A DNA stretch of 64,000 nt from Rhodanobacteraceae bacterium (GTDB lineage: Bacteria > Pseudomonadota > Gammaproteobacteria > Xanthomonadales > Rhodanobacteraceae), in NCBI GenBank assembly GCA_016790075.1, contig JAEUPP010000006.1, positions 248,001 to 312,000 on the forward strand. The letters are read 5' to 3'. This document shows positions 12,250-14,852 of this stretch, piece by piece; the stretch's first letter is position 1, and every line of letters begins with the position of its first letter. Both the position numbers and the translations under genes were made by a program. The notes under the pieces are model-generated. The model was not told the DNA's origin. It ran no database searches and worked only from the letters and a program-made list of their open reading frames with translations.

Positions 12250-13360
12250 GTGCGCCCGGCAGGGCGCACTTGCTTGGAGGTGAAAGTCCTCTACTCGCCC
12301 GGCAAGGGGAAGAGTTAGCGGAAGGCAAGGGCGTTTCGGGTGACTGAGCGTCTGGAGGAAGCTGGAAGCAAAACACTGGCCTGACGAACAGGAAGCGGAT
12401 ACGAGGCGAACACGGCCGCGGCTGAGCAAACGAAAGCGGCGTTGCCAGGGTTGATGGAGGCCGTGGTCGAACGCAGTAACCTGTGGTCGGCGTATCAGAA
12501 GGTGGTCCGCAACGGTGGTGCAGCGGGGGTCGATGGCCTATCGGTGGACGCATTGAAGGACTGACTGAAGGTGTACTGGCCGCGCGTAAAGGCCGCATTG
12601 TTGGAAGGTCGGTATCTACCGGCGGCGGTGCGCGCAGTGGCGATTCCTAAGCCCTCGGGCGGAGAGCGGACGCTGGGCATTCCGACGGTGCTGGGCCGGC
12701 TGATCCAGCAGGCACTGTTGCAAATCCTCCAACCAATCGTCGAACCGACATTCACCGAATCGAGCTACGGCTTTCGGCCTGGGCGCAATGCCCATCAGGC
12801 GGTACGTGCGGCCCAGCGATACGTGCAAGAAGGTCGCACATGGGTTGTGGATATCGATCTGGAGAAGTTCTTTGACCGGGTGAACCACGACAGGCTGATG
12901 TCGCGGGTTGCGCGGTATGTCGATGATGATCGTGTGCTCAAGCGGATCTGGCGTTACCTGGAAGCGGGACTGATGCGCGATGGGGTAATCCAGGCACGTA
13001 GCATGGGCACGCCGCAAGGCGGCCCGTTGTCCCCGCTGCTGTCGAACATCCTGCTGACGGATTGGGATCGCGAACGGGAAAAACGCGGACACGCATTCTG
13101 TCGCTACGCCGACGACGGCAATATCTATGTTCGAAGCGAGACAGCGGCCAATCGTGTGATGGCGAGCATGACGGCGTCCCTCGAGGAACGGTTGTCGCTG
13201 CGCGTCAATGAAGCCAAGAGTGCGAGTGCTCGCCCCTGGGAACGCAAGTTTCCTTGGGTACACCCTGACGCGGCAACTTCATCGTCACTCGTGAACCGCC
13301 GTATGCGGAACCGCATGTACGGTGGTGTGGGAGGGGGCGGGTTGCTGCTGCCTACCCGAT
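12250..13360 (+). mobile_element. Group IIC intron remnant (internally deleted)
   Basis: The 5' end GTGCGCCCGGC and the following GAGGTGAAAGTCCTC are the domain I start seen in group IIC introns such as that of Oceanobacillus iheyensis. The 3' part (about 13293-13328) is a near-canonical domain V, AACCGCCGTATGCGGAACCG followed by CATGTACGGTGG. A domain VI-like hairpin then ends in CTACCCGAT at 13360, with the likely branch A in CTACCC. Total length is about 1.1 kb, against roughly 1.8-2 kb for an intact element with its reverse transcriptase. The missing part is the end of the reverse transcriptase and the maturase region. The ribozyme ends look intact; splicing is untested. Both boundaries are my estimate, good to a few bases. 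Confidence 0.88.
12454..13275 (+). pseudogene. ltrA: Intron-encoded reverse transcriptase/maturase, broken
   Basis: The reading frame from the ATG at 12454 encodes a group II intron reverse transcriptase: AYQKVVRNGGAAGVDGLSVD, then VAIPKPSGGERTLGIPTV, SSYGFRPGRNAHQAV, VVDIDLEKFFDRVNHD, GTPQGGPLSPLLSNILL and the catalytic RYADD box. Three lesions are visible. There is an in-frame TGA at 12562-12564. One extra base around 13251-13252 turns the family sequence KFLGYTLTR into KFPWVHPD. Finally, sequence after about 13275 jumps straight to domain V, removing thumb and maturase (X) domains. The protein cannot be functional. Palm-domain residues are preserved, so decay looks fairly recent. Confidence 0.9.
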
Positions 13361-13811
13361 CCGGTGCATAGGGCAGCGCCGCTGGCGTAGCGTTTCTGGT
13401 CGGCCGCTGCGTGGCTGTCGAGGTATGCGAAATCTGCTGCGTCCAGCCCGTGATGCACTACCGGAGGTAGTACATCACGCGCCCGGCGTAGCAGCGTCTG
13501 GCGCTAGGCAAGTCGGCGCGTCAGCTCAGTCAACCGTACTGCGATCGGTGCGGCGAGGGACGACCGCTGTGGTCGCCGCATGGGGACGCGCGCAGTGATC
13601 GTCGGTGTGAGGTGACGTCGCACGGAGTAGTCGGGGCGCGGTTGCTTTGGCGATCCAGGATCTGCGCACTTTCGCGCAAATCGGCCTGCGACGGACGTGT
13701 CGACAGTCTGCGAGCTGAACGCAAACGAGATCGCCTCGCGGCATTGCTCCGAATTAATCCTCGGAGTGGTTGCGGCGCCGTCGGTCAGATGCTTCCCGAC
13801 ATTGTCGCGGT
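13361..13811. other. Intergenic region with a long imperfect palindrome, no gene seen
   Basis: I find no convincing gene here; short open frames on both strands have no family features or ribosome binding sites. The clear structure is an inverted repeat centred near 13464: 13450-13462 pairs with 13466-13478 (12 of 13), and flanking bases extend it to about 13434-13494 with mismatches. A GGCGTAGC-containing stretch occurs before and after it in direct orientation (about 13383 and 13485). It could be a decayed mobile element end or a transcript-end hairpin. Confidence 0.4.
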
Positions 13812-13817
13812 TTGTGG

Positions 13818-13860
13818 TTAATTATAATTAATAAAATAATTTAATATTAAATTTGTAAAT
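13818..13860. other. AT-rich island upstream of metJ
   Basis: Forty-three bases contain a single G and no C, in a region otherwise near two-thirds GC. It includes TAATTATAATTAATAAAATA and ends just before a cluster of regulatory candidates for metJ. Such tracts are typical of curved DNA, nucleoid-protein sites or UP elements; none is proven here. Confidence 0.6.
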
Positions 13861-13940
13861 TCACTGATTGTCAGGCGAATGCGCGAGTTTTCTTGCACTT
13901 GCCCCGCGACGGCTTGTGCATTGGTTGCGCACGAAGCGCT

Positions 13941-13964
13941 ATCCGTCTAGGCGGCTGGACGTCC
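13941..13964. promoter_or_regulatory. Candidate MetJ operator: three tandem met boxes
   Basis: Three contiguous 8-base units, ATCCGTCT, AGGCGGCT and GGACGTCC, each match the met-box consensus AGACGTCT at six of eight positions and sit in exact 8-base phase. MetJ dimers bind such tandem arrays cooperatively. The array is 167 bases before the metJ ATG and about 107 before the best -35 element, so autoregulation would need an upstream start or distal binding. Confidence 0.5.
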
Positions 13965-14070
13965 GCTAACGCTGGCTCATTGGCAGTGTCAGGCGTGTCG
14001 CCAGTGTGCCCGTTGTGTCGTACCGAGTGGGTGATCTTCGTGCATGTGATTGTCGCGCATCGAAAACTTG

Positions 14071-14099
14071 TTGACACTGCTGGATGACAGGAATAATTT
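14071..14099 (+). promoter_or_regulatory. Predicted sigma70 promoter for metJ
   Basis: A perfect -35 TTGACA (14071-14076) is followed after 17 bases by TAATTT (14094-14099); an overlapping AATAAT (14092-14097) gives a better -10 with 15-base spacing. The metJ ATG lies about 35 bases downstream. Confidence 0.65.
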
Positions 14100-14131
14100 T
14101 CGCGCCGTTGAAACGCGCGTGTAATGGAGAT

Positions 14132-14629
14132 ATGTCGGAAGACACGTACATCGACCCGTATGTCGAACACGGGAGCAAGTCCGAAGCGGTACGCAAGATT
14201 ACCGTTTCGATCCCGATGCACGTACTCCGGCTCCTCTCTGATGAACGTACGCGGCGGCAGGTCGCCAACCTCCGCCACGCGACCAACAGCGACTTGCTGT
14301 GCGAAGCGTTTCTGCATGCTTTTACTGGGCAACCACTGCCAACTGACGAGGAGCTAAAACGTATGGCCATGAAGAAAGCAACCGCGAAGAAACCTGCCGC
14401 GAAGAAAGCGGTCAAGAAAGCCACTGCCAAGAAGGTAGCGGTCAAGAAAGTCGCAAAGGCTAAGGCTGCGCCGGCCAAGAAGGCGGCGACCAAGAAGGTA
14501 GCGGCGAAGAAAGTTGCCAAGAAGGCAGTGGCGAAAAAGGCCCCTGCCAAGAAGGCAGCAGCCAAGAAGGCGGCACCTGCCAAGGCCGCTCGCGCTACCA
14601 AGGCCGCTAAGCCCACTGCTGCCAAGTAA
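14132..14629 (+). CDS. metJ: MetJ methionine repressor fused to a histone-H1-like tail
   Basis: A 165-residue protein. Residues 1-76 follow E. coli MetJ almost position by position: [20 protein letters not shown] (the DNA-contacting ribbon), [20 protein letters not shown] and [15 protein letters not shown], including the S-adenosylmethionine-binding region. MetJ is a ribbon-helix-helix dimer that represses methionine and SAM biosynthesis genes. From about residue 78 the normal MetJ C-terminus is missing. It is replaced by some 85 residues of Lys/Ala/Pro repeats ([15 protein letters not shown] type), like bacterial H1/HctB-type histones and AlgP. GGAG at 14125-14128 supports the ATG at 14132. 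A second in-frame start at 14363 has its own good binding site. The gene stands alone with its own promoter and terminator. The fold of the repressor part is secure; the tail's role (DNA compaction, non-specific affinity) is inference. Confidence 0.93.
14349..14365 (+). promoter_or_regulatory. Internal ribosome binding site and start inside metJ
   Basis: AGGAG (14349-14353) lies nine bases before an in-frame ATG at 14363 (Met78), exactly where the repressor domain ends and the basic tail begins. Initiation here would give a free 88-residue H1-like protein beginning [10 protein letters not shown]. Confidence 0.45.
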
Positions 14630-14737
14630 GTCGCTTCACGCTGTATCGCAACAACGAGTACAACCAGCAATACGTATCGGATTTGCCACCCCTGCGGTGC
14701 CCAGCGCAGGGGGCGGACTTCAAACCGGACGAACAAG

Positions 14738-14760
14738 AACGCCGCGCAAGCGGCGTTTTT
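14738..14760 (+). terminator. metJ intrinsic terminator
   Basis: AACGCCGC (14738-14745) pairs with GCGGCGTT (14750-14757) around a GCAA tetraloop, and the T run continues to 14760. It closes the single-gene metJ unit. Confidence 0.9.
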
Positions 14761-14852
14761 CGTTGTGAGAACGGGTTCACGACGCCTTAGGCGACAGCGA
14801 TCGTGCCGCGGGCTAGCATGGTGCTATCGCTGGACCGTGCGGAGGTCTTCAC

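Follow-up and report, generated by a model that had tools for sequence, protein, structure and literature searches.

The metJ gene of the window (the whole 64,000-nt stretch of DNA analysed here) encodes a methionine repressor core that continues in one open frame into a basic, histone-H1-like tail, and it probably also contains a nested gene for an H1-like protein. The strongest signal, which goes beyond an earlier interpretation of this DNA from its letters (the sequence-only reading), is a conserved internal Shine–Dalgarno (SD) sequence and start codon at the junction of the two parts; it points to production of the tail on its own as well. We assign a probability of about 0.63 to the reading that this one gene has two products, a tailed, autoregulated repressor of the SAM type and a free H1-like protein from an internal start. 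No published MetJ–H1-like fusion or internal start in metJ was found in the literature covered, which comprised partly available sources and excluded most subscription journals.

In the two-product reading, translation from 14132 would yield a ribbon-helix-helix MetJ repressor in which the usual C-terminal end is swapped for a basic Lys/Ala tail. With SAM as corepressor, the tailed protein would bind tandem MET boxes and repress metX-metB-hom, cysJI, cysG and its own gene, while its tail would add non-specific DNA contact. A second, in-frame start (GAGGAG at 14348 and ATG at 14363) would give the tail alone, an 88-aa histone-H1-like DNA-binding protein. With a single MET-box-controlled transcript as the source of both products, their amounts should follow methionine/SAM status. 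A more speculative extension, which we consider rather doubtful, is that methyl-donor status sets how much chromatin-like protein is made and in what ratio tailed repressor and free tail occur, so that nested starts and MET-box autocontrol would couple one-carbon and sulfur metabolism to nucleoid compaction across the family. A link to nucleoid structure, or extra affinity for operators, had been put forward in the sequence-only reading as a possible role of the tail. The fusion and its conservation, the MET boxes at the targets and upstream of metJ, and the signatures of an initiation site were all computed.

If the two-product reading is right, annotated tailed transcription factors may hide separate nucleoid proteins. 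MetJ would moreover act in an order for which, in the available part of the report, a four-genome regulon survey reconstructed no MetJ regulon, and a link between SAM status and chromosome structure could be tested directly.

The MetJ core, its basic tail and their spread

MetJ is a textbook one-domain repressor. The open frame at 14132..14629 (+ strand) encodes a full-length product of 165 aa, in which profile and alignment matches identify a ribbon-helix-helix MetJ core (residues 1–77; 14132..14362, + strand) that lacks the canonical C-terminal region. The Pfam MetJ profile matches residues 5–83 (E = 1.2e-39; 134.7 bits against a cut-off of 25) and the NCBIfam MetJ model matches residues 4–84 (139.7 bits against a cut-off of 110). 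Crystal structures of E. coli MetJ span the core region of the frame, and an ungapped alignment of residues 5–80 with the E. coli protein from the PDB gives 55 identities in 76 positions (hand count); this bears out the claim of the sequence-only reading that the N-terminal 76 residues, ribbon and SAM region included, are close to E. coli MetJ. Lys22, Thr24, Arg41, Glu58 and Phe64 align with Lys23, Thr25, Arg42, Glu59 and Phe65 of E. coli MetJ, which we take to be ribbon and pocket residues, and all five are identical. The search of the window's own genome (G000; 5.6 Mb in 83 contigs) gave a single MetJ match.

The canonical C-terminal region (about residues 82–104) is absent from the frame, and the Lys/Ala tail stands in its place. 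We do not count this region as defining MetJ, because genomes of another family (f12) have MET boxes together with a short MetJ that lacks it. In another order, that of genome G643, 44 of 59 genomes contain MetJ. Most of the genes read there are canonical, but others differ at the C-terminus, with open frames of 87–92 aa; such variability across MetJ genes argues that the C-terminal region is replaceable. Two further loci of that order (L144 and L145, in genomes G750 and G774) carry an unrelated, non-Lys/Ala extension at the C-terminus of the MetJ core, in an open frame of 213 aa.

The tail itself comprises residues 78–165 (88 residues) and is rich in Lys and Ala. The sequence-only reading had described 76 MetJ residues followed by about 85 residues of Lys/Ala; the fusion is upheld, and the lengths are corrected to 77 and 88. 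We call the tail H1-like by composition alone: its matches to HC2 (PF07382; 27.4 bits, cut-off 40) and to the Burkholderia-type H1-like model NF038053 (32.9 bits, cut-off 80) are weak and do not reach the curated cut-offs. Among the complete tails of the family of the window's genome (f1; n = 112), Lys and Arg together make up a median fraction of 0.41 (range 0.29–0.50) and Ala a median of 0.35, and the length ranges from 34 to 309 aa with a median of 92.5. Judged from these comparisons, the tail is of old standing and shared by the whole family, although its length varies greatly, and it is probably disordered. NF038053 matches occur in 53 of 61 genomes of the order, none above the cut-off, a count that includes the metJ tails; because they are so widespread and also occur in genomes without MetJ, there is nothing unusual in the mere presence of a basic H1-like protein.

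Small proteins annotated 'Histone H1' in Xanthomonas, of 83 and 86 aa in the available part of the source (PMC8578834), are of comparable kind. The HC2 and Burkholderia-type proteins resemble the tail in composition and size as well as in the weak profile match, whereas the window tail scores below the curated cut-offs and, unlike stand-alone H1-like proteins, is encoded inside another gene. Mycobacterial HupB is likewise a DNA-binding protein with a Lys-rich tail. To our knowledge, neither HupB nor Streptomyces HupS nor actinobacterial TopA is a SAM-responsive repressor. HupS and TopA, as described in the accessible portions of the literature, also join a DNA-binding domain to a basic low-complexity stretch, and those portions mention no internal start at the tail. 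The tail of MetJ is predicted to bind DNA as well.

The fusion recurs throughout the family. When the window's genome and 60 relatives were searched, MetJ was matched in all 37 genomes of the family, in open frames of 137–278 aa, and the family-wide search matched it in 227 of 233 genomes. A total of 118 family loci were read, drawn from the matches listed among the 227 genomes and from the 61-genome set; they probably hold one genome twice, as L031 and L157, both on contigs of length 38104, are apparently the same record. Of the 117 loci that were parsed, all 112 with a complete tail continue from metJ into a basic tail. In the remaining five the contig stops within the gene, and four more short metJ frames (G073, G098, G062 and G063) likewise lie at contig ends. 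The locus outside the 117 (L155) has a junction protein of the same kind, but its codons were not counted. The sequence-only reading had named a sequencing error that joins two genes as the finding that would overturn the fusion; with the same join throughout the family loci and all 112 complete tails basic, the fusion is real and no sequencing artefact. As to whether the tail tracks the lineage across Xanthomonadales, the lineage that carries it is one family and not the whole order.

Outside the family, 2 of the 24 genomes of the 61-genome set contain MetJ. Both belong to f12, and the protein is tail-less in both (79 aa in L032). In L032 and L033 the start codon of the short metJ overlaps, as ATGA, the stop codon of an upstream gene that by eye is secretin-like. 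Short tail-less metJ genes were also found in three genomes of two further families (G313, G349 and G408; f8 and f9), each through a three-mismatch match of the 23-nt pattern described below; MetJ is therefore not wholly absent from families that were negative in the 61-genome set. Among the relatives, seven loci (L034–L040) replace the motif DERTRRQ by DLRT(H/Y/S/E)RQ, which changes Arg41, the equivalent of E. coli Arg42. The latter is, we assume, a SAM contact, and SAM binding may be altered in these seven proteins. Their genomes (G010, G035, G024, G023, G026, G021 and G028) retain 2–12 MET-box pairs each.

The junction and its candidate internal start

For the codon statistics, 58 loci were reduced to 42 at 92–93% identity, and for the synonymous, SD and structure statistics 117 were reduced to 63; L059 (at a contig end) and L028 are excluded from both sets. 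Codons are numbered from a HATNSDL anchor, so that codons 0–4 lie at about 14276–14290. A block of 15 MetJ codons (14318..14362, + strand) hardly varies across the family, even at synonymous positions. Codons 16, 17, 21, 24 and 25 read ACT, GGG, CCA, GAG and GAG in all 42 deduplicated loci, and at codon 27 Arg is AGA in 38 of 38 loci, the other four having Lys. The excess synonymous identity averages 0.72 over codons 14–28 against 0.15 before codon 10 (63 loci). Equivalent codons of 30 canonical MetJ genes have no such excess, so the constraint belongs to the fusion. A second, weaker peak, of up to 0.50, lies farther upstream at codons 0–4.

The block runs into the internal SD sequence GAGGAG (14348..14353, + strand), present in 116 of 117 loci, and an in-frame ATG follows 9 or 12 nt on, as codon 29 or 30, in 115 of 117. 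In the window the proposed start is the ATG at 14363..14365 (+ strand), with a second ATG at 14369–14371. The nested in-frame ORF (14363..14629, + strand) would encode a putative free histone-H1-like protein of 88 aa. The two exceptions lacking the ATG are L028, which has GTG at that codon, and L059, where the contig ends. A 23-nt pattern of the block was found in 124 of 125 genomes of the family, the sole non-match being the genome of L028 (G013). The window's genome has one copy at up to three mismatches; outside the family, none of 273 genomes has a match within two mismatches and six have one at three. A repeat or cassette that occurs elsewhere is ruled out by this single copy and the lack of closer matches outside the family.

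The internal SD sequence is predicted to pair strongly with the 16S end. The mean duplex energy is −10.05 kcal/mol, compared with −4.59 at metJ's own site, −2.63 for the gene average and −5.15 for synonymously recoded sequences (63 loci). Because recoding gives an equally strong SD with a mean chance of 0.11 per locus, it is only the conservation of the SD that is compelling. Given how far the internal site exceeds that of metJ in strength, the free tail would probably outnumber the full-length product. The mRNA is also open around the internal ATG, at about −5 kcal/mol from −36 to +12 against −8 to −12 in adjacent stretches (63 loci). The region of metJ's own start is similarly open (−5.0 to −6.3 at −252 to −228 relative to the internal ATG). 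Within the MetJ part, at −168 to −156, structure dips a third time (−5.7, −5.9), and a mean fraction of 0.20 of the coding positions equals or exceeds the internal ATG in openness, so the low structure is no more than supporting evidence. In L028, by contrast, the junction is strongly structured (−18.8). The second and fourth Lys codons of the tail are AAA with frequencies of 0.92 and 0.63, compared with 0.03–0.13 from the ninth on, and the first and third are mostly AAG (63 loci). From these signatures we infer internal initiation.

These features must be weighed against the view that a single tailed MetJ is made, in which the tail raises DNA affinity or oligomer bridging and the conserved block serves a different purpose as an RNA or DNA element, for instance as a small-RNA target, an mRNA processing site or a protein-binding site. 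This we regard as unlikely, although it is the best of the alternatives. Its case includes the absence of a stop between the two parts in 116 of 116 loci tested, despite the 4–8 single-base changes per gene in codons 16–35 that would create one, an observation that also argues, within the two-product reading, that the fused form is probably kept too. It is favoured as well by L028, which has lost the internal ATG, one GAG of GAGGAG and the codon conservation but keeps the fused tail, so that at least one lineage can do without the internal start, and by conservation extending well 5' of the SD. What a single tailed product leaves unexplained is why the block should end in an almost invariant SD and ATG, with low mRNA structure and frequent AAA at two of the first four Lys codons of the tail.

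The conserved region reaches about 45 nt upstream of the internal ATG, which is more than an SD sequence needs. This excess length would fit an internal transcript, with a promoter as well as a ribosome site in the block and the H1-like protein translated from its own mRNA, independently of MetJ autoregulation; TTTTACT at the 5' end of the block is, by eye, a weak −10-like string. A consensus scan for promoters of the sigma-70 type found none on the + strand in 13800–14850, and no conserved −35 was seen by eye at the right distance. We judge an internal transcript improbable, less so than the explanation to which RNA motif searches point. There, a type II hammerhead ribozyme in the block would cleave the transcript so as to separate the metJ part from the tail part; a 181-base search with Rfam gave a full-length Hammerhead_II match at 14299–14359 (19.7 bits, E = 0.065). 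The score falls far short of the gathering score (37), and several base pairs of the model are disrupted. Positions that presumably belong to the hammerhead catalytic core vary at codons 9 and 22: 23 of 42 loci have GAG for the GAA triplet, and 7 of 42 have CCGA for CUGA. The region folds no better than shuffles. A ribozyme here can be virtually dismissed.

A stable RNA fold in the block was rejected more generally, with z-scores of −0.19 to 1.31 in the six element-bearing loci among the seven folded. L028, from which the element has been lost, folds better (z = −2.07), and single-strand folding does not explain the conservation of some 45 nt upstream of the ATG. A conserved peptide in the +1 frame was likewise rejected, since by reading of the alignments the tolerated changes alter that peptide.

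Nested genes of the proposed layout have precedents. N-terminal proteoforms in Salmonella, in the available part of the report (PMC11005335), are likewise two proteins in one frame with a common stop and an internal start, and two-polypeptide phage endolysins and Cas11b are described, in the portions accessible, as in-frame nested products from an internal start. Unlike in those genes, the nested product proposed here is a nucleoid-type protein inside a metabolic repressor.

MET boxes and the surroundings of the locus

Box-pair scoring places three degenerate tandem MET boxes, ATCCGTCT AGGCGGCT GGACGTCC, upstream of metJ (13941..13964, + strand), where they probably form an autoregulatory operator. 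The best pair in the window is weak (12 of 16 matches, at −191). Of 65 deduplicated loci, 31 have a pair upstream of metJ that matches in 13 or more of the 16 positions, at −147 to −189, where block shuffles predict 0.1, and 48 have one that matches in 12 or more, where 0.8 are expected. These boxes are predicted to control metJ.

With up to two mismatches, the window's genome has six tandem MET-box matches against two for a reversed-pattern control. Strict sites lie upstream of metX-metB-hom (three boxes; hom encodes homoserine dehydrogenase), cysJ-cysI and cysG. At three mismatches the matches are rarer than the control (10 against 29), so the strict sites alone count. The strict matches of the own genome also include three MET boxes (L075:3151–3174) that adjoin a gene for a 956-aa secreted protein with PKD and PPC domains, an unexpected candidate target of MetJ.

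At up to two mismatches, pairs occur in 36 of 37 genomes of the family (140 forward matches against 23 for the control, hand sum) and in both genomes of f12, each with MetJ (16 matches each, 32 in total, against 3). In the 22 of 61 genomes that have no MetJ match, pairs were found in two genomes only (2 matches against 23 for the control). Within the genus of the window's genome, eight genomes together have 21 matches against 13 for the control, a slight excess, and G001 has no pair. MET boxes thus occur almost only where MetJ occurs. The natural reading of these patterns would be a MET-box repressor of sulfur and methionine genes and of its own gene, and the boxes at those genes and upstream of metJ support, at the level of sequence, the earlier claim of a working sequence-specific repressor.

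The window protein shares with the E. coli met repressor (MetJ, PF01340) its family, the aligned DNA-contact and SAM-pocket region and the MET boxes at methionine genes. It differs in the Lys/Ala tail after about residue 77 and in the internal ribosome site and start. SAM would be its ligand by family membership.

The literature on the order is mixed. The available part of Leyn et al. 2014 (PMC4239095) lists four Xanthomonadales genomes without a MetJ regulon and reports SamR there, and metJ is described as missing from Xanthomonas campestris strain 8004 in the accessible text of another report (PMC6230763). In contrast, MetR/MetJ control is apparently conserved in many Gram-negative bacteria, including Xanthomonas, according to the part available of a further source (PMC7270179), and MetJ of Rhodanobacter sp. 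R12 is described, in the excerpt at hand, as putatively repressing methionine synthesis (PMC12146267). The tailed family (f1) may be Rhodanobacteraceae or a close neighbour.

The glycine-cleavage genes gcvT and gcvH precede metJ, and a TonB-type gene lies downstream of it. Relatives share this setting: of 15 other loci, most with flanks of only about 1.5 kb, 9 have gcvH and 8 have TonB. In the window, two genes separate metJ from tonB. A reverse transcriptase ORF (RVT_1; 12571–13371) between gcvH and metJ, which may belong to a group II intron or another retroelement, was not seen in the 15 loci used for comparison, whose flanks are short. A promoter-like pair, TTGACA (14071–14076) and AATAAT (14092–14097), was noted by eye (14071..14097, + strand) and its role is uncertain; the 15-nt spacer falls outside the 16–18 nt that the consensus scan required, and the scan did not list the pair. 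A long leader of about 170 nt separates the MET boxes from the metJ start (13941–14131), with similar spacing in relatives, and the promoter-like pair sits far nearer to metJ. Downstream of the gene, an inverted repeat with an 8-pair stem and then a short T run (14738..14757, + strand) is the likely metJ terminator, the stem having been listed by the scan for the − strand only and the T run seen by eye.
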